From Alphaproteobacteria bacterium RIFCSPLOWO2_01_FULL_40_26 (GTDB lineage Bacteria > Pseudomonadota > Alphaproteobacteria > Rickettsiales > UBA1997), in contig MEMO01000021.1 of NCBI GenBank assembly GCA_001767955.1, forward strand, positions 72,344 through 111,120: a stretch of 38,777 nt of DNA. Direction: 5' to 3'. A program made the position numbers and the translations under genes. A model generated the notes under the pieces. The model was not told the origin of the DNA. It was given only the letters and a program-made list of their open reading frames with translations, and made no database searches. Positions 5,529 through 38,612 of this stretch are shown here, one piece after another. Each line of letters opens with the position of its first letter. Positions within the stretch are counted from its first letter, which is position 1.

Positions 5529-6155
5529 CCTGGTTTTTTAATCGAAAATAAATACGGCAATTCAATTATTGCCGGAATTGACGAAGCCGGACGCGGACCG
5601 CTTGCGGGGCCGGTTGTTGCTGCTTGCGTAATTCTTAATCGCGATGATTTTCCACAAGAAACAGATGATTCAAAAAAACTCTCAAAAACGAAGCGCTACA
5701 AAGTTTTTTTGGAGTTGCAGCAAAAGGCAAAATTCGGCATCGGCATCGTTGACGAAAAAACAATAGATAAAATCAATATCCTTGAGGCAACAAAGCTGGC
5801 AATGCTTCATGCCTATCTCGATTTGCAAAAAAAATATGGAATTTTTGCGCAGGTAATTTTGGTTGATGGAAATTTTTTACCTTTTGAAAAGCGCGATGAA
5901 ATTACGGAAATTTTACCTGTTGTAAAAGGTGATCAGAAAAGTCTCTCTATTGCCGCCGCTTCAATAATTGCCAAAGAAACACGCGATGAAATCATGAAAA
6001 AATTTAGCAAAAAATATCCACAATTTGGCTTTGAAAAACATGCTGGCTATCCAACAAAATTTCATATTGCAAAAATTAGAGAGCATGGAATTTCTGAAAT
6101 TCACCGCAAGTCATTTGAGCCAATAAAATCAATGCTTTGTGCTAGGGCGTGTTGA
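5523..6155 (+). CDS. rnhB: Ribonuclease HII
   Basis: A 210-residue RNase HII, which nicks RNA in RNA-DNA hybrids including single embedded ribonucleotides. GIDEAGRGPLAGPVVAA places the DE pair at D20-E21; ILVDGN gives D115; KETRDE places the last acidic residue near D155. The C-terminal four residues (ARAC) and the TGA stop lie within the MITE beginning at 6143, so the original C-terminus was probably displaced by that insertion. The catalytic core is complete, so activity is likely retained. Confidence 0.95.
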   Translation: MQPGFLIENKYGNSIIAGIDEAGRGPLAGPVVAACVILNRDDFPQETDDSKKLSKTKRYKVFLELQQKAKFGIGIVDEKTIDKINILEATKLAMLHAYLDLQKKYGIFAQVILVDGNFLPFEKRDEITEILPVVKGDQKSLSIAAASIIAKETRDEIMKKFSKKYPQFGFEKHAGYPTKFHIAKIREHGISEIHRKSFEPIKSMLCARAC

Positions 6156-6367
6156 CATTCATTTTTATTCCCATTTTTCCACAAATTTTTGCTCATTTTT
6201 TTGAAGAATTTTTCGCAGTGTTTGAGCGTTAAAAAATCGCGAAGCGATTTTAGCGAAAACGGGCATGAGCGCAGAGCGCGAATCCCGATACAGCTTCAAA
6301 ATTCTTCAAAAAAGTCGCTAAAAATTTCTGAAAAACTGTGAATAAAAATGAATGTCAACACGCCCTA
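6143..6367. mobile_element. Long-type palindromic MITE (225 bp) between rnhB and tsaC
   Basis: TA-ended element with inverted ends: TAGGGCGTGTTGACATTCAT at the left and its complement closing at 6367. Arms continue as an almost full-length hairpin whose inner parts (tttttgaagaattttt / aaaattcttcaaaaaa) are shared with other copies. A central extension with gcgaagcgattttagcg and its G+C-rich continuation is also found in the interrupted copy at 37206-37819. It encodes no protein. It supplies the stop of rnhB and the GTG start of tsaC. Confidence 0.8.
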
Positions 6368-7039
6368 ATAATTAACCAGAAAGCTCCAAATGCTGTCAAT
6401 TTGGCCTGCAAATTTTTGCGCGAAGGAAAAGTGATTTCTTTTCCAAGTGATACAATTTACGGCATTGCCGTTGACGCTTCTAATTCAAAAGCCGTTCGAG
6501 CTTTATATCGAATAAAAAATCGTGATGAAAAAAAGCCAATCGCAATTTTTGTAAAAGATCTGAAAGCGGCGGAAAAAATTTTTTGTTTTGATAAATTGTC
6601 AAAAAAAATAGTGCGGAAATTTTTTCCAGGACAATTGACATTGGTTTTAAAAACAAAGCCTGAAGCCTCTTCCTTTCTCGCTTCAAATCTGAATAAAAAT
6701 AATGATGGCTTTCTTGGATTTCGAATTATCGATAGTTTTTTTGTACAAAAATTATTTGAAAAATTTGACGGCAATCTGGCGGTAACCAGCGCCAATATCA
6801 GCGATCAAAAAGCAGCAACTAGCGCGAAAGAAGTGGCAAAATATTTTGAAAAACTTGATTTAGTTATTGATGGTGGAATATGTGATGGACAGCCTTCAAC
6901 TGTGGCTAAAATCACCGATGACAAAATCGAAATTTTACGCCAAGGAAAAATAAAGGTGAAGATAAAGGGGAAGATAAAATTGGTTGTTATCAAAAATATT
7001 GTGTCTCTAAAAATAGATCCTGAAACAAGTTCAGGATGA
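6338..7039 (+). CDS. tsaC: Sua5/YciO/YrdC-family threonylcarbamoyl-AMP synthase
   Basis: A 233-residue YrdC-fold protein. TsaC makes threonylcarbamoyl-AMP for t6A37 of ANN-decoding tRNAs. Seen are LREGKVISFPSDTIYGIAVD (YrdC core), KNRDEKKPIAIFV, LAVTSANIS and ILRQGKI. It lacks a C-terminal Sua5 domain; YciO is an alternative. The chosen start is GTG at 6338 inside the upstream MITE; no better start exists in this frame before the conserved core, so the insertion appears to have replaced the native start region. The last 19 residues (from LVVIKN) are encoded by a second repeat (6982-7102), preceded by a Lys-rich slippage-like tract. Both protein ends are thus repeat-derived while the core is intact. 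Confidence 0.8.
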   Translation: MNKNECQHALIINQKAPNAVNLACKFLREGKVISFPSDTIYGIAVDASNSKAVRALYRIKNRDEKKPIAIFVKDLKAAEKIFCFDKLSKKIVRKFFPGQLTLVLKTKPEASSFLASNLNKNNDGFLGFRIIDSFFVQKLFEKFDGNLAVTSANISDQKAATSAKEVAKYFEKLDLVIDGGICDGQPSTVAKITDDKIEILRQGKIKVKIKGKIKLVVIKNIVSLKIDPETSSG

Positions 7040-7102
7040 CATGTTTTGGAACCATCTTTCCCTAATTGTCATTTTTCTGGACACAAAATTTTAAGAACAA
7101 TC
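6982..7102. repeat. 121-bp inverted-ended repeat, copy 1
   Basis: Near-identical (one visible substitution) to 15468-15588. Its ends are imperfect inverted repeats: ggttgtt..attgtgtc at the left, and gattgttc..ttttgtgtc when the right end is read on the other strand. The middle holds a hairpin, ATCCTGAA paired with TTCAGGAT around loop ACAAG. This copy supplies the tsaC C-terminus and stop and ends 8 bp before the FKBP-like start. Confidence 0.75.
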
Positions 7103-11668: not shown

Positions 11669-11832
11669 TAGAGCCTGTCTTTAAATTCATTTAACTTTGA
11701 TTTTTTGTAAATTTTTAGCGACTTTTTTGAAGAATTTTGAAGCTGTATCAAGCATACTGCGAAAAATTCTTCAAAAAAATGAGCAAAAATTTGCGGAAAA
11801 GCAAAGTTAAATGAATTTAAAGACAGGCTCTA
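11669..11832. mobile_element. Short-type palindromic MITE (164 bp) between leuA and ldcA
   Basis: Begins TAGAGCCTGTCTTTAAATTC and ends with its complement, both with TA, consistent with duplicated TA targets. The arms form a long hairpin around a core gctgtatc..gcatactgc. No open reading frame. It lies between the divergent starts of leuA and ldcA and ends 13 bp before the ldcA ATG, so it may provide part of the ldcA leader. Confidence 0.82.
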
Positions 11833-11845
11833 AATTGCAAATCAA

Positions 11846-12847
11846 ATGATGCTCAAAAAGAACGATATTGTTGACATAGTTTCTCCTAGTACCCCATGTA
11901 CTTTTGATGAGATTCAAAAAATAAAAAATTATGTAAAAAAAATTGGATTTACTCCAAGAATTTTTTTGGAAAAAGAGACGGCGATAAAAAAATCACAAAG
12001 CCACGAATTCGCGTCAATTGCGGCTGAAACGCGTTTCGAACAATTAAAGGAAGCAATTGAAAATCCCCATTCAAAAATAATTTGGTGCACGCGCGGCGGT
12101 TATGGCAGCGCAGAAATTTTGCCGTTTTTGATGAAGATGAAAAAACCAAAAAAACCAAAAATTTTTATCGGTTTTTCTGATATTTCTTCGCTAAATATTT
12201 TTCTAATCCAGCAATGGGGATGGAAAGTTGTAAGTGCTCCAATGCTAGTGCAACTTGCCTTGGAGAAGGTTTCTAAAAAATCTGAAAAGGCAATTTTGGA
12301 TTTGGTTTTTGGGAAAAACAAAGAATTAAAATATAAACTGGATTCACTAAATGGACCCCGCAACGAGTGCGGGGTGACACGGTTCTGGAGTTATACTCAA
12401 AACAATGTCACCCCGCATTCTAGAAACAATGTCACCCCGCACTTGTTGCGGGGTCTGATAGTTGGGGGTTGCATCAGCGTCGTTTCCGCCCATTTCGGCA
12501 CTCAAAACCAAATCGATTGGAACAAAAAAATCCTATTCCTCGAAGATGAAGGCGAGGATGGTGAACGGCTTGATCGTTATTTCCATCAGATTGCCATCAT
12601 CATCAAAGAAAGTGAAAAAAAACCAGCGGCAATTCTGCTTGGAAATTTCCTCGAAGCCAATCCTCATGGCGCTCCAAAAGCAAAAAATATCGAAATTGCT
12701 ATAAAAAAATTCAGCGGAAAACTCGGCAATATTCCACTCTTCATCGAAAAATCAAAATGCCTTGGACATAGCAAAAACATGATGCCACTAGTTTTGGGAA
12801 CAGATGCGAAAATTACGGCAGATAATTTTTTGGTTCAGAAACTTTAA
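11846..12847 (+). CDS. ldcA: L,D-carboxypeptidase (murein tetrapeptide, S66 family) with in-frame repeat insertion
   Basis: A 333-residue S66 peptidase, which removes the terminal D-Ala from recycled muropeptide tetrapeptides in the cytoplasm. Ser88 sits in CTRGGYGSAE, the Glu of the triad in FLEDEGED (about E233), and His308 in CLGHSK. Residues 170-203 (NGPRNECGVTRF..) are encoded by a 102-bp paired-hairpin repeat at 12354-12455 that keeps frame; the flanking family sequence resumes at GLIVGGCISVV. The insertion lies between the two domains, in a region likely to tolerate a loop, and all catalytic residues are kept. Confidence 0.9.
   Translation: MMLKKNDIVDIVSPSTPCTFDEIQKIKNYVKKIGFTPRIFLEKETAIKKSQSHEFASIAAETRFEQLKEAIENPHSKIIWCTRGGYGSAEILPFLMKMKKPKKPKIFIGFSDISSLNIFLIQQWGWKVVSAPMLVQLALEKVSKKSEKAILDLVFGKNKELKYKLDSLNGPRNECGVTRFWSYTQNNVTPHSRNNVTPHLLRGLIVGGCISVVSAHFGTQNQIDWNKKILFLEDEGEDGERLDRYFHQIAIIIKESEKKPAAILLGNFLEANPHGAPKAKNIEIAIKKFSGKLGNIPLFIEKSKCLGHSKNMMPLVLGTDAKITADNFLVQKL
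12354..12455. repeat. Paired-hairpin repeat inserted in frame within ldcA
   Basis: 102 bp, exactly 34 codons. The left hairpin pairs ACCCCGCA with TGCGGGGT around ACGAG; the right one (12431-12455) is the inverted form with loop CTTGT. Between them is a third partial copy, gtcaccccgcattctag. Outer ends are GACCCC and GGGGTC. The same plan occurs at 21956-22039 in pabB with a different stem sequence. Confidence 0.85.
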
Positions 12848-15448: not shown

Positions 15449-15467
15449 AATTTAGAAGTAATTTTTT

Positions 15468-15588
15468 GGTTGTTATCAAAAATATTGTGTCTCTAAAAAC
15501 AGATCCTGAAACAAGTTCAGGATGACATGTTTTGGAACCATCTTTCCCTAATTGTCATTTTTCTGGACACAAAATTTTAAGAACAATC
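15468..15588. repeat. 121-bp inverted-ended repeat, copy 2
   Basis: Second copy of the element at 6982-7102, differing at one visible position, 8.5 kb away and in the same orientation. Here it is intergenic, upstream of hisA. Its near identity suggests recent duplication or conversion. Confidence 0.75.
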
Positions 15589-19173: not shown

Positions 19174-20135
19174 GGCAAAATTTGAAGAATTTTTATGGAA
19201 GATTCGTGCATCGTGCATCGTGCATCGTGCATCGAATTCATAATTTTACGAAGCACGAAGCACGAAGCACGAAGCACACCAACGCCTTCTCCCTCCTCGA
19301 ACTAGCAATCGTCCTGGTAATCATCAGCATCCTGATTGTTGGAGTCACTCAAGGTGCAGCAATGATTAATGCAGCACGTCTTACCAATGCCAGATCTGTC
19401 ACCTCCAAATCTCCTGTGCCAAATATTCCAGGACTTACAGCATGGTATGAAACATCTCTGAGAGATTCTTTCAAAGGCAGTGAAGCAATTGAAAATGGAC
19501 AGATTACGGAATGGTATGACATCAGCCCAAACTCACTTGCCTCCAAAAAAAACAAGCTAACCAAAACTGCTGGGAGTGACGCAATCTATCGCATTTCCGG
19601 CATCAACAAAACTCCATCAGTTAAGTTCAGTGGTTCCGGAAAAATTTCTCTGGCAAATTTTTATCAGGGCAACACTGCGCAGGCCACAGTGTTTTTGGTG
19701 TTTAGAGCTGATTTTACTCCAAGCGCAACACAAGTAATTCCGTTTGATTCTTACAACGGTGCAAGTCGTTTCTCCATCGGCATTAAAAACAATGCAATTA
19801 GGCTTGATGCGGGAACCGCCGCAGATACAGCAACTGCTTCAAATCCGGCAAATTTTGTTGCCGGTGGAGAATATATCCTTGCCGTCTATTTCAACGGCTC
19901 GTCATCCGGAGCATATCTCAACAACGCAGCCACTCTTGCCGGCGCTGGCAACATCAATGCCGGCAGCAATTCCTTAACCGGCACAAGCATCGGAGCTGAT
20001 AAAAACGGCACCAGCGGTTTCACCGGCATGATTTCTGAAGTGATAATTTTCAACCGCTCGCTCAAAATTCAGGAACGCAAAGATGTGATGAATTACCTGT
20101 CCAAAAAATATAAAATCGCGGTGAGCGGAATTTGA
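19170..20135 (+). CDS. Type IV prepilin-like protein with C-terminal LamG-like domain
   Basis: A 321-residue protein from ATG 19170, which overlaps the gcvPB stop. Residues 40-57, FSLLELAIVLVIISILIV, form a class III signal: cleavage before Phe40, Glu at mature position 5, then the hydrophobic helix. From about 70 onward, GLTAWYETSLRDSF.., VKFSGSGKI, GMISEVIIFNRSL and DVMNYLSKKYKI resemble concanavalin-A/LamG-type beta sandwiches. It is probably a minor pilin or pseudopilin exposing a glycan- or surface-binding domain; the prepilin peptidase at 31534 could process it. Most of the 39-residue leader is encoded by two inverted heptamer arrays (19205-19275), so the true start may be one of the array GTGs. 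Its stop overlaps the rpoH ATG. Confidence 0.8.
   Translation: MRQNLKNFYGRFVHRASCIVHRIHNFTKHEARSTKHTNAFSLLELAIVLVIISILIVGVTQGAAMINAARLTNARSVTSKSPVPNIPGLTAWYETSLRDSFKGSEAIENGQITEWYDISPNSLASKKNKLTKTAGSDAIYRISGINKTPSVKFSGSGKISLANFYQGNTAQATVFLVFRADFTPSATQVIPFDSYNGASRFSIGIKNNAIRLDAGTAADTATASNPANFVAGGEYILAVYFNGSSSGAYLNNAATLAGAGNINAGSNSLTGTSIGADKNGTSGFTGMISEVIIFNRSLKIQERKDVMNYLSKKYKIAVSGI
19205..19275. repeat. Opposed heptamer arrays in the prepilin leader
   Basis: cgtgcat occurs four times (19205-19232), then a short spacer, then acgaagc four times (19248-19275). Read on the opposite strand the first unit is acgatgc, so both are ACGANNN and lie in inverted orientation with one mismatch per unit. 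Copy changes of 7 bp would shift reading frame between ATG 19170 and the mature pilin. Confidence 0.85.
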
Positions 20136-21031: not shown

Positions 21032-21594
21032 TCACTCATATCGGCAAAGTTGAAGAATTGAAATTCAATGATGCACTGCTAAAAATTTCTGTTGAAAAAA
21101 AAATTGATCGTAAGCTTGAAAAAGGCTGTTCTATTGCCTGCAATGGCATTTGTCTGACTCTGATTGCCAAAGAAAAATCCGGCAAAAAAACTTTTCTCTC
21201 TTTTCAGGCATCAGAAGAAACCCGCACTAAAACAACTTTGCAAAACTGGAAAAAAAACCAAAAAATAAATCTCGAATTTGCTCTACGAATTGGTGATGAA
21301 TTAGGCGGACATATGGTTTTGGGACATGTCGATGGAACCGCAAAAATCAGGACTATAAAGCCAATCAAAAATTCTTATGAATTCATTTTTGAAACCAGAT
21401 TTATGAAATTCATCGCCAAAAAAGGTTCAGTAGTGCTTGATGGCGTTTCTCTTACTGTGAACGAAACTGGAAAAAATTTTTTCAGCGTAAATATCATCAA
21501 ACACACTATGACCAACACCACTTTTCAAAATATGAAAATCGGCGATCTGGTTAATCTGGAAATTGATCCGATTGCGCGTTACTGGCTGAAATGA
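21016..21594 (+). CDS. ribE: Riboflavin synthase alpha chain
   Basis: A 192-residue protein with the invariant start MFTGII and two lumazine-binding repeats: first repeat through CNGICLTL, second with GDELGGHMVLGHVDG and LDGVSLTVNE. It dismutates two 6,7-dimethyl-8-ribityllumazines to riboflavin. The ATG lies inside rpoH and its stop overlaps the pabB ATG (ATGA). Other rib genes are not seen here. Confidence 0.96.
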   Translation: MFTGIITHIGKVEELKFNDALLKISVEKKIDRKLEKGCSIACNGICLTLIAKEKSGKKTFLSFQASEETRTKTTLQNWKKNQKINLEFALRIGDELGGHMVLGHVDGTAKIRTIKPIKNSYEFIFETRFMKFIAKKGSVVLDGVSLTVNETGKNFFSVNIIKHTMTNTTFQNMKIGDLVNLEIDPIARYWLK

Positions 21595-22907
21595 AGTTAG
21601 CGTGGCAAAATCCTCTGCATTTGGCTCAAAAAATTGCCGATAGCTACAACGAAGACTGGGTTTTTTTATATTCAGGACTGCATAAAAAAATTAAAAATTC
21701 GACTTCCTACATCGCACTTTTTCCGCGAGAAAAAATCATTTGCGATAATTTCAAAACCGCAGAAGCAAAAATAAAAAACGGCAAAGAAAAGTGGTTTGGA
21801 TACTTGTCATATGAGGTTGCACACGATTTTGAGAAATTGCCAAAAACCAAAAAATCCTTCATCAATCTGCCAAAAATCCATCTGATAAATTTTTCCCTGA
21901 TTCTTGAATTTGATCATGACAAAAAAATTCTTACCGCAATTTGTGATGATAAAAAGATCCTGAAACAAGTTCAGGATGACGAAGCACGAAGCACGAAGCA
22001 CGAAGCACGAAAATGTCATCCTGAACTTGTTTTGGGATCTATCAAAAATATTTACTCCAACTTCACCGACAAATCATATCTTAAAACCATCGCCAATATT
22101 AGAGAAATGATCGCAAAAGGTGATTTTTATCAAACCAATTTAACCCGAAAATTTTTTGGTGAATTTACGCAGAAACAAAATCAGCAATCTTCATTTCAAC
22201 TCTTTACCGATTTAGTAAAATCAAGCCCCGCCAATTATTCATCTTTTTTAAGACTGGATAAAAATTTTATTGTTTCCTCAAGTCCGGAATTATTTTTGGA
22301 GATTAAAAACGGCAGAATTATTTCACGTCCGGTTAAGGGCACAATGCCGCGTTCTGCAAATGCAAAAGAAGATCATAAAAATAAATTGGCATTAAAAAAT
22401 TCTGCCAAAGAACGTGCTGAAAATTTGATGATTGTTGATTTGGTCAGAAATGATTTATCCAGAATTTGTAAGGCCGGAAGCGTCGCGGTGAAAAAACTTT
22501 TTACCATCACAAGCTACAAAAATATTCACCACATGTCTTCTGAAATTCATGGAATATTGAACAAAAACTCTTCAACCATTGATGCAATCAAAGCTACATT
22601 TCCCGCGGGATCAATGACTGGAGCGCCGAAGATAAAAGCAATGGAGATAGCGGCAAAAAAAGAAAAAATGGATCGCGGAATTTACAGCGGATGTATCGGA
22701 TTTTTGGACGGGACGAGTAAGGCAAATTTATCTGTGGTAATCAGAACTCTAATTTTGCAGGGGAAAAAATTTGAATTTCAAACTGGCGGGGCGATCACTT
22801 TTAACTCTGACTCACAGGCAGAACTGCTGGAAATATTCAGCAAGGCAAAAGCAATTATAAAAGCACTGGACGCTACTTCTTTTCTTCAGTTTTCGCAGCA
22901 GAAGTAG
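21591..22907 (+). CDS. pabB: Aminodeoxychorismate synthase component I with in-frame repeat insertion
   Basis: A 438-residue chorismate-utilising enzyme that makes 4-amino-4-deoxychorismate for folate with a glutaminase partner. GDFYQTNLTR, ISRPVKGTMPRS (PIKGT-type motif near residue 249), MIVDLVRNDLSRI, FPAGSMTGAPKIKAME and the closing FQTGGAI support PabB. Anthranilate synthase is the close alternative, but trpE is separate at 28109 and the KGT motif favours PabB. Residues 122-150 come from an 84-bp repeat (21956-22039) inserted in frame in the N-terminal domain. The 3' end overlaps the convergent rplY by 35 bp. Confidence 0.92.
   Translation: MKLAWQNPLHLAQKIADSYNEDWVFLYSGLHKKIKNSTSYIALFPREKIICDNFKTAEAKIKNGKEKWFGYLSYEVAHDFEKLPKTKKSFINLPKIHLINFSLILEFDHDKKILTAICDDKKILKQVQDDEARSTKHEARKCHPELVLGSIKNIYSNFTDKSYLKTIANIREMIAKGDFYQTNLTRKFFGEFTQKQNQQSSFQLFTDLVKSSPANYSSFLRLDKNFIVSSSPELFLEIKNGRIISRPVKGTMPRSANAKEDHKNKLALKNSAKERAENLMIVDLVRNDLSRICKAGSVAVKKLFTITSYKNIHHMSSEIHGILNKNSSTIDAIKATFPAGSMTGAPKIKAMEIAAKKEKMDRGIYSGCIGFLDGTSKANLSVVIRTLILQGKKFEFQTGGAITFNSDSQAELLEIFSKAKAIIKALDATSFLQFSQQK
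21956..22039. repeat. Paired-hairpin repeat with heptamers inserted in frame within pabB
   Basis: 84 bp, exactly 28 codons. The left hairpin pairs ATCCTGAA with TTCAGGAT around ACAAG; the right hairpin is inverted with loop CTTGT and two stem mismatches. Between them are four acgaagc heptamers (21979-22006). Outer ends GATCC and GGATC correspond to GACCC and GGGTC of the ldcA insertion. Confidence 0.87.
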
Positions 22908-23626: not shown

Positions 23627-23789
23627 TAGGCACTGTTAACTAATTATTTTTTTCGGGATTTTTCGCAAATTTTTAGCGACTTTTTTAAAAAATTTCGCCG
23701 CTGTATTAACATACTGCAAGAAATTTTTTGAAAAAATGAGCAAAAATTTGCGGAAAAGCACGGGGAAAATAGTTAGTTAACAGTGCCTA
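23627..23789. mobile_element. Short-type palindromic MITE (163 bp) at the end of bcp
   Basis: Starts TAGGCACTGTTAACTAA and ends with the complement, with TA at both ends. The inner arms and gctgtat..catactgc core match the copies at 11669 and 37416, but the outer ends differ. It encodes the last residues (GTVN) and the stop of bcp. Confidence 0.82.
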
Positions 23790-29593: not shown

Positions 29594-29729
29594 AACGCCA
29601 ATTCCGGATAAGGCATCAAGCCAATCTCGATTAGTTCCCTCTCCCCTTGTGGGAGAGGGTTGGGGTGAGGGGTAATATTTTGTGAGGGGTAATATTTTGT
29701 GAGGGGTAATATTTTGTGAGGGAACGCCT
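29594..29729. repeat. REP-bearing element with 17-bp tandem units between trpE and ftsY
   Basis: From 29595 the start ACGCCAATTCCGGATAAG is identical to the 18-bp inverted end of the element at 37350-37728. Next is a hairpin pairing CCCTCTCCC with GGGAGAGGG around CTTGT, then gaggggtaatattttgt repeated three times (29667-29717). The far end is degenerate (taagaacctg). The hairpin may serve as a terminator for both convergent genes, but no T-run follows. Confidence 0.75.
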
Positions 29730-34414: not shown

Positions 34415-34578
34415 TAGAGCCTGTTTTCAAACCCACCACATTTCGCTTTTGCCCAAATTTTGGCTCGTTTTTTGGCAAAATTTTTTGCTGTATGCCAGAT
34501 ACAGCGGCACAATTTTGCCAAAAAGTCGCACAAAATTTGGGCAAAATCGAAACGCGCTGGGTTTGAAAACAGGCTCTA
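34415..34578. mobile_element. Short-type palindromic MITE (164 bp)
   Basis: TA-ended, TAGAGCCTGTTTTCAAACCC with its complement closing at 34578. Arms use ggcaaaattttttgctgtat and its partner; the core is gctgtatgccagatacagc. It lies between the FNR gene and the DUF1640-like gene, whose start is 24 bp further on. Confidence 0.82.
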
Positions 34579-37197: not shown

Positions 37198-37349
37198 ACT
37201 TGCCCTAGAGCCTGTCTTAAAACCCACCGCGCCTCGCTTTTCCATAAATTTTGAGCGACTTTTCGGCAAAATTTTGCCGCTGTATCTTATCGGGATTCGC
37301 GCTTTGCTCTCATGCCCGTTTTCGCTAAAATCGCTTCGCGATCTTTTAA

Positions 37350-37728
37350 ACGCCAATTCCGGATAAGGCATCAAGCCAATCTCGATTAGTTCCCTCTCCC
37401 CTTGTGGGAGAGGGTTAGAGCCTGTCTTCAAACTCATCACAGCTCGATTTTTCAGAAATTTTGAGCGACTTTTCGGCAAAATTTTGCTGCTGTATCTGGC
37501 ATACTGCAAAAAATTTTGCCGAAAAACGAGCCAAAATTTGTGGAAAAGCGAGCTGTGATGAGTTTGAAGACAGGCTCTAGGGTGAGTGGTATTAACTTTT
37601 TTAATCGATTCTTTCCAAAATTTCTGAATCGATGTTTTAAAATTTACCCCTCACCCCAACCCTCTCCCACAAGGGGAGAGGGAGTAGATCGAGAAAAATT
37701 TAGGCAGGTTCTTATCCGGAATTGGCGT
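37350..37728. mobile_element. 379-bp inverted-ended element inside the long MITE
   Basis: Perfect 18-bp inverted ends (ACGCCAATTCCGGATAAG at the left and its complement at the right), flanked by TTTAA at 37345-37349 and 37729-37733, a probable 5-bp target duplication. It carries two opposed REP hairpins and a complete short MITE. No coding sequence. Confidence 0.78.
37416..37579. mobile_element. Short-type palindromic MITE (164 bp), innermost insertion
   Basis: TAGAGCCTGTCTTCAAACTC and its complement with TA at both ends; arms gcaaaattttgctgctgtat and partner. It splits a REP repeat: gagagggtt on its left and gggtgagtggtattaa on its right correspond to the continuous gagagggttggggtgagg seen at 29655. 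Confidence 0.8.
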
Positions 37729-37817
37729 TTTAACGCTCAAACACTGCAAAAAATTTTGCCAAAAAACGAGCCAAAATTTGTGGAAAAGCGAGCTGTGATG
37801 AATTTGAATACAGGCTC

Positions 37818-37880
37818 TAGAGCCTGTATTCAAATTCATTCGCCCCCGCTTTTTTGTAAATTTTTGCTCTTTTTTGCATA
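37818..37880. mobile_element. Partial MITE, left end
   Basis: tagagcctgtattcaaattc begins at the TA that ends the preceding MITE, giving a back-to-back palindrome at the junction. It continues through gtaaatttttgctctttttt and is lost where the 100-bp element enters. Confidence 0.6.
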
Positions 37881-38342: not shown

Positions 38343-38512
38343 CCTCACAAAAATATTACCCCTCACCCCAACCCTCTCCCACAAGGGGAGAGGGAGTTGC
38401 ACCGAATTCGGACTTACTCCCTCTCCCCTTGTGGGAGAGGGTTGGGGTGAGGGGTAAATAATTTGTGAGGGGTAATATTTTTGTGAGGGGTAAATATTTT
38501 TGTGAGGAAGGT
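38343..38512. repeat. Large inverted repeat of REP hairpins upstream of tuf
   Basis: Left arm from 38343 (cctcacaaaaatattacccc.. to ..gagagggagt) and right arm from about 38416 (actccctctccc.. to ..tgagg) are complementary over roughly 55 bp with few differences, around a centre containing ccgaattcgg. Three diverged copies of the 17-bp gaggggtaatattttgt unit follow to 38512. Confidence 0.8.
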
Positions 38513-38612
38513 AAATAACCCAGGAAGAGTGGAGTAATTACAAATTTTCTTAAGCATCATTGTGGTTAAATTTTAATTTACTTCGGATCGCATTTCGTAA
38601 ATTAATTTCTCT

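Follow-up and report, generated by a model that had tools for sequence, protein, structure and literature searches.

The question raised by this locus is how 84 nucleotides of palindromic DNA, two inverted hairpins around a heptamer array, come to be read through as part of pabB. The window, meaning the whole stretch of 38,777 nucleotides that was analysed, belongs to a source genome (G000) of 1.44 Mb in 38 contigs, 97.5% complete; relatives are designated below as G001 and so on. The answer developed here, and held to be highly probable, is an inverted pair of CGTC-tagged REPs with a heptamer array as spacer, lying in frame in the interdomain linker of PabB.

An inverted REP pair within pabB

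The features of the window on which the argument rests are as follows.

21591..22907, + strand: pabB (aminodeoxychorismate synthase component I), 438 aa
21956..22039, + strand: REP pair in frame in pabB, an inverted dimer of the CGTC-tagged REP with the tags inside
21956..21980, + strand: left REP arm, GATCCTGAAACAAGTTCAGGATGAC, a perfect copy, translated ILKQVQDD
21979..22011, + strand: ACGAAGC heptamer array forming the spacer of the pair, translated EARSTKHEAR
22015..22039, - strand: right REP arm, GTCATCCTGAACTTGTTTTGGGATC, with three changes against the consensus; its + strand is translated HPELVLGS
7016..7040, + strand: solo arm of the pabB-type REP with a family-A spacer and no recognisable partner arm
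15502..15526, + strand: solo arm of the pabB-type REP, within a 123-nt direct repeat common to 6980-7102
12354..12455, + strand: second in-frame REP pair, 102 nt, stem CCCCGCA/TGCGGGG, in ldcA (11846-12847)

The stretch 21956-22039 is a 26-bp inverted repeat, with a hairpin in each arm, whose arms flank a 33-nt heptamer array. The arms also pair with each other, so that the whole folds into a single hairpin of 26 bp at -40.9 kcal/mol (z -8.8), a stability equalled by none of 200 shuffled sequences. The first-pass annotation had described paired hairpins with ACGAAGC filler in frame in pabB, and this is what is present: two arms, a perfect array of 4.7 copies, and an open reading frame in which the 84 nt are translated as ILKQVQDDEARSTKHEARKCHPELVLGS (28 codons), with ILKQVQDD as the sole stop-free forward frame of the left arm. 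In detail that description needs amending for the right arm, which carries three changes.

The pair sits between the Pfam matches to Anth_synt_I_N (69-115) and Chorismate_bind (161-418), and alignment with E. coli PabB is poor in the linker region that holds it; a structure model of PabB, built from four sequences, reached a pLDDT of 33 and is too poor to use. At up to three mismatches the arm occurs four times in the window, as the two pabB arms and two solo copies, against 0.00 expected. The solo copies lie in two direct repeats of 123 nt (6980-7102 and 15466-15588) that are 99% identical, each with one REP arm and the family-A spacer and without a recognisable partner.

A dispersed repeat with patchy expansion

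The element is multi-copy and dispersed, as had been proposed from the window. In the source genome the 15-nt inner arm has 161 matches at up to two mismatches and forms at least 50 exact arm pairs, with none in the reversed-pattern and pair controls. Across the stretches around these pairs the outer ends are largely constant (YAGATCC..GGATCTR), whereas the spacers vary. In most pairs outside genes the spacer is a common one of 27 nt or a variant of this, a second spacer of 27 nt and one of 11 nt recur in smaller sets, and the remainder are unique; the spacers of in-gene pairs are unique while most outside-gene pairs share a few, so that no parent copy could be identified. A compensated stem variant, GATCCCGAAACAAGTTCGGGATGAC, occurs in two arms. 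The ldcA pair, which had been recognised as having the same plan with a different stem, is real, 102 nt long and in frame, and uses a second stem, CCCCGCA/TGCGGGG.

Among 20 genomes of the genus, GGATGAC..GTCATCC pairs occur in 13 (58 in the source genome, 69 in G015) and GGGTGAC..GTCACCC pairs in 10 (43 in G008, 27 in G016, 15 in G019 and 14 in the source genome, two of them nested), with controls of 0 for both; G002, G003, G007, G011 and G018 have no pair by either pattern. The 21-nt stem of the pabB pair, at up to one mismatch, is found in seven of the 20 (216 copies in G015, 135 in the source genome, 24 in G017, 12 in G019, 4 in G014 and one each in G005 and G011; control 0). These uneven counts mean that the REP expansion is patchy.

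The heptamer array is a separate repeat. Twenty ACGAAGC arrays of 25-37 nt were found in the source-genome stretches, the window included, and for 12 of them the frame is open for 40 codons on both sides. At three other loci (L114, L121, L125) an array or array-like tract begins at or near a REP tag, and the composite seen in pabB is therefore not unique. An Rfam search returned nothing near any gathering score; families of miRNA hairpins match by shape only.

Other repeats were observed in the window. At 19204-19277, opposite-sense heptamer arrays (TCGTGCA, 4.4 copies; ACGAAGC, 4.3 copies) occupy the 5' end of a pilin-like ORF with N_methyl and Laminin_G_3 matches and are translated in frame as HRASCIVHRIHNFTKHEARSTKH. 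Inverted repeats of about 70 nt (TAGAGCCTGT...) at 6143-6367, 11669-11832, 23627-23789, 34415-34578 and 37206-37820, with arms 81-87% complementary, make up a second, larger MITE-like family. Tandem repeats of 17-18 nt, GTGAGGGGTAATATTTT, stand beside a TCCCTCTCCCC palindrome at 29665-29722 and 38447-38517.

Relation to known palindromic elements

REPs of the CGTC-tagged class are described as having a CGTC (or TGTC/CCTC) tag, an 8-9-bp stem opening with AT, a loop of 4-5 nt and a 3-nt tail that is mostly CCA, according to the sections drawn on here of the survey by Di Nocera, De Gregorio and Rocco (2013; PMC3733652). The pabB pair carries an unpaired tag at each arm, CGTC at the left (GATGACG) and TGTC at the right; the arm stem ATCCTGAA/TTCAGGAT has 8 bp and starts with AT, the loop is CTTGT (5 nt), and the 3-nt tail is mostly CTA or CTG (CTR), or CCA where the CCCCGCA stem is used in purK and ABC-F. 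Tag, 8-bp AT stem, 5-nt loop (the CGTC-2 format) and alphaproteobacterial host agree with the class, as do multiple dispersed copies that lie mostly outside genes and sometimes within them (PMC3733652, same sections). The tail may agree in its 3-nt length, and the lack of a Y1_Tnp match in the source genome, Y1_Tnp being the one transposase searched for, would be in keeping with a class that has no known dedicated transposase. The same part of the survey catalogues REPs within genes, suggests that they may be tolerated in linkers or loops, and reports no transposase link for CGTC REPs.

The arrangement of the arms departs from that account. Tags-outside (HH) dimers are predominant and tags-inside dimers rare in the material presented in PMC3733652, whereas in the stretches of the source genome 59 of 62 neighbouring arm pairs are tags-inside (TT), two are tandem (HT) and one is tags-outside. 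The CTR tail of the pabB-type stem, in place of CCA, and the heptamer-array spacer also differ from the class as characterised there.

In R. conorii, CGTC-1 corresponds to RPE-6 and CGTC-4 to RPE-4 (in the corresponding part of PMC3733652), and the Rickettsia in-frame case is repeated in what we draw on of a MITE review (PMC10969869). Like RPE-4 and RPE-6 as presented in these portions of the two papers, the present repeats are palindromic, of REP type, and in frame in many unrelated protein genes (22 pairs over the source genome, G008 and G014); the likeness is one of kind and placement, stem sequences aside, and the host is not a Rickettsia. Judged on these features, the element is of an ordinary kind, a CGTC-type REP pair as in the in-frame palindromic elements of Rickettsia.

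Two further comparisons are looser. REPINs are GTAG-type elements tied to RAYT genes. The pair shares with them the plan of two inverted REPs and a spacer (compare PMC3116915), and differs in its CGTC/TGTC tag in place of GTAG and in a host genome without a Y1_Tnp match. Palindromic elements of Wolbachia are protein-coding palindromes in Rickettsiales; the pair is likened to them by description, not by sequence. The CGTC-4 repeats of Wolbachia are given as unrelated to WPE in the relevant passage of PMC3733652. None of the papers searched contains the peptide HPELVSGS, and a query for comparable elements in assemblies of Rickettsiales gave none on this subject, judging by titles.

Pairs within genes keep the reading frame

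Whether pairs within genes preserve the frame was assessed by a frame-blind test. A Markov model of fourth order that takes account of codon position, trained on long ORFs totalling 371 kb, judged the two flanks separately for coding that extends as far as the element, and for the strand and phase of that coding. The sample comprised 116 pairs (70 from the source genome, 22 from G008, 12 from G001, 8 from G019, 2 from G014 and one each from G005 and G010), 110 taken by a strict stem rule and six, including the pabB pair, added by hand because their second arm is weaker. Pairs of G015, G016, G017, G009, G004, G006, G012 and G013 were counted only, and several contig-end pairs of G008 were likewise left aside.

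Same-strand coding was found on both edges of 26 of the 116 pairs; 89 lacked it and one lay at a contig end. The two edges agreed in phase in 23 of these 26, and random positions in the same stretches did so in 181 of 207, so the few discordant calls fall within the noise of the method. Two of the discordant pairs lie between genes, L096 between hisE-like and iscA-like and L100 between pgi-like and dsbB-like genes (names read from the flanking peptides), while L177 occupies residues 8-32 of its own ORF, ahead of the FAD-binding start. One in-phase pair, L091, is interrupted by stops and precedes a kdsB-like gene (name again read from peptides), and was taken out of the in-gene count. After reclassification all 22 in-gene pairs keep the frame (13 in the source genome, 8 in G008, 1 in G014), 93 are judged to lie outside genes and one stays at a contig end. 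The proteins thus tolerate the element, as the first-pass annotation had suggested: each of the 22 pairs is read through.

Length modulo three, tabulated inside and outside genes, bears out the proposal that insertions are selected for frame. In the source genome 12 of 13 in-gene pairs have a length divisible by three, compared with 8 of the 54 pairs that are not bordered on both sides by same-strand coding (8 of 57 after reclassification). Over all genomes the figures are 17 of 22 against 17 of 89 (18 of 93 with the four reclassified pairs), with the qualification that outside-gene lengths are dominated by one 77-nt spacer family, so that Fisher values overstate independence, and that three in-gene pairs common to the source genome and G008 are not independent counts. 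Five of the 22 in-gene pairs (L157, L186, L205, L207, L209), with GACCC-type arms and spacers of their own, are not a multiple of three between GAYCC and GGRTC, and their frame is still open. Spacing between like-oriented arm motifs, present inside some pairs, follows the same rule. Within genes all 27 spacings, from 10 of 10 pairs, take one of three values (21, 24 or 51 nt); in other pairs 16, 17, 20, 25, 28, 40 and 58 nt are seen as well, and only 4 of 13 of these have multiples of three throughout (L091 counted outside).

For the pabB-type stem the rule has a reason in the frames of the arms. The right arm has two stop-free forward frames (HPELVSGS and VILNLFQD), and all seven GATCC-type in-gene pairs use the same one, reading ILKQVQDD (IPKQVRDD in L124) and then HPELVSGS, HPELVLGS or HPELVSGF; because all are read in the same arm frames, their length is divisible by three. 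If the offset seen in ABC-F holds, the common 77-nt and 61-nt pairs would always shift the frame, which would account for no shared-spacer pair being called in-gene. That selection filters pairs for frame is well supported by these observations.

Tolerance was also placed on protein domains. Nine proteins of the source genome were compared with Pfam, several of the queries being protein pieces. Five (pabB, ldcA, sdhA/nadB-like, pepP-like, trmB-like) have the pair between domain matches or bordering on one, one (Fe-ADH_2) has it outside any match, and three (folC-like, acs-like, fadD-like) have it within a domain. In ldcA the pair falls between two Peptidase_S66 domain matches and touches the second with its final residues. 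Since the folC-, acs- and fadD-like proteins have interrupted domains, tolerance is not limited to linkers. In a folylpolyglutamate-synthase-like gene on contig 11 of the source genome (3783-3947 of L086), the REP pair has a spacer with a nested inverted repeat, TGTCGCAAATC..GATTTGCGACA, also in frame.

The pabB linker and other shared sites in relatives

A clean insertion of 84 bp into pabB, as first envisaged, does not agree with the relatives. The homologous linker stretch, read in 19 of them, measures 108-111 nt in 12, 117-126 nt in five, 144 nt in G016 and 192 nt in G015, and that of the source genome, at 138 nt, is about 27 nt rather than 84 nt above most. A net gain of about 27 nt would mean either that native sequence was lost or that an older occupant was replaced. 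The ILKQV of the left arm resembles the native LLEKV/KIDQV of relatives, and the arm could in part be native.

None of the relatives examined has the source genome's pair at this site, and an intact pair of any kind is absent from 17 of the 19 linkers. The linkers of G015 and G016 contain pairs built on the other type of stem (GGACCCCG..GGGGTCC), as that of G008 probably does: its pabB is split, and the first portion stops no more than about 30 nt short of an other-stem pair at the contig end. Codons such as those for WTPQQ or WTSQQVRGD in several other relatives may be remnants of a decayed arm. Repeated occupation of the linker is thus probable, the pair of the source genome replacing or displacing native codons.

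Other sites are shared outright. The source genome and G008 have pairs at the same codon of three genes, ldcA, purK and one for an ABC ATPase, whose proteins are only 64-77% identical. The arms are nearly identical, at the DNA level in ldcA and purK and at the peptide level in the ABC ATPase, and the spacers differ. Insertions independent of relatives in general, as first supposed, do not fit this sharing. In pepP the pairs of the two genomes lie at different places, and the G008 pair is absent from the source genome. For old shared insertions to have freshly identical arms, copies would have to convert one another or the site would have to be hit more than once.

The ABC-F site is 147 nt long in the source genome against 78 nt in nine of 14 congeners, and holds a 63-nt pair (GACCC to GGGTC) with a net gain of 69 nt (23 codons). 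Over 15 genomes (L265-L279) this loop has nothing extra in nine congeners, other strong palindromes in G007 and G008 (z -6.3 and -6.0), and extra sequence in G002, G005 and G014, of which folding is unexceptional in G002 and G005 (z -1.8 and -1.0). In purK of G003 there is a perfect 11-bp hairpin. It is intriguing to hypothesize that the pabB linker, the ABC-F ATPase loop and the purK and ldcA sites are fixed landing loops, refilled in frame by different palindromic families, and that continuing conversion or re-targeting keeps the in-gene arms identical as their spacers turn over; we regard this as speculative and rather unlikely as a whole.

Origin and spread of the pairs

The course of events that we favour is the following. 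REPs would copy themselves into many sites through an activity that probably acts in trans, and copies that break a frame would be purged. To survive within a gene, a pair would need arms in stop-free frames (ILKQVQDD, then HPELVSGS), a stop-free spacer and a net change in length of 3n, and survivors would lie mostly in loops and linkers tolerant of extra residues, where the spacer may then drift or expand by codon-sized units. In all likelihood the inserted peptide serves no purpose itself, and we infer its neutrality.

A different course, possible if doubtful, is that the pair is a MITE moved as a unit by an end-acting transposase, for which the hairpin arms would be the terminal inverted repeats. 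The largely constant outer ends around variable spacers would suit such an element, as would the single +69-nt insertion in ABC-F at an otherwise empty site. Solo and tandem arms argue against it, and Y1_Tnp, the one transposase searched for, is absent from the source genome.

Spread by a RAYT, the kind of Y1 tyrosine transposase put forward for REPs of the GTAG type, is unlikely, even though inverted REP pairs resemble REPINs and Y1_Tnp matches stand above the cut-off in seven congeners (G001, G002, G003, G005, G009, G014, G015). A Y1_Tnp search of the source genome gave no match despite its 50 or more pairs; G008 and G019 have none despite 43 and 15 other-stem pairs, whereas G002 and G003 have Y1_Tnp and no pairs. 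Over 47 genomes, the source genome included, matches occur in 16, in 11 above the cut-off, and do not track the number of pairs. None of 10 congener Y1 loci, read with flanks of at most 1.5 kb that in some cases were truncated where the contig stops, has a pair; one, in G015, has a single cognate arm at a distance of about 1.1 kb. The CGTC REP survey, in the sections cited above, is likewise without a transposase link (PMC3733652). With no link by copy number or by flanking pairs, RAYT was set aside as the mobiliser. A separate observation concerns G036, of the same order (2.0 Mb), whose 73 Y1_Tnp matches, most with equal scores, represent a large IS200-like expansion.

Selection for the feature itself, for instance as an mRNA hairpin or a useful PabB linker, is very unlikely. 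The hairpin is very stable, and palindromic pairs fill the pabB linker in G015, G016 and probably G008 too, but the same pairs occur in unrelated genes, their spacers are not conserved, and an intact pair is missing from the linker in 17 of 19 relatives. A chance palindrome or an assembly artefact has a negligible probability: repeats do break contigs in these metagenome assemblies, as with the G008 pairs at contig ends, but the repeat controls and the shuffled folds all gave 0 and the flanks form one intact gene.

A terminator role was considered for pairs outside genes. Of 54 such pairs in the source genome, 11 lie between convergent, 22 between tandem and 15 between divergent genes, with six unresolved; 11 of 48 resolved pairs compare with 38 convergent among 231 background gene pairs (147 tandem, 46 divergent), no clear enrichment, in which the repeat differs from CGTC-tagged REPs as presented in the consulted sections of PMC3733652. 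Directly 3' of the pair, T makes up 5.5 of 10 nt outside genes against 3.8 of 10 for in-phase pairs, and some outside-gene pairs may act as terminators.

Implications

The best-described palindromic repeats read in frame are those of Rickettsia, a genus of obligate intracellular bacteria. In the present case in-frame REP pairs are common in another alphaproteobacterial genus, with genomes of 1.0-1.7 Mb, whose named members are metagenome assemblies and which counts some 20 species genomes. This genus makes two matters testable, namely the activity that spreads CGTC REPs and the way in which proteins gain sequence from selfish DNA, and it shows empty, filled and refilled versions of one and the same loop. 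What remains of interest beyond the pabB pair is the scale of the phenomenon in the genus, the refilled loops and the missing mobiliser. If landing loops are indeed refilled, they would represent a living population of protein-coding repeats, together with a mobilising activity still to be discovered.
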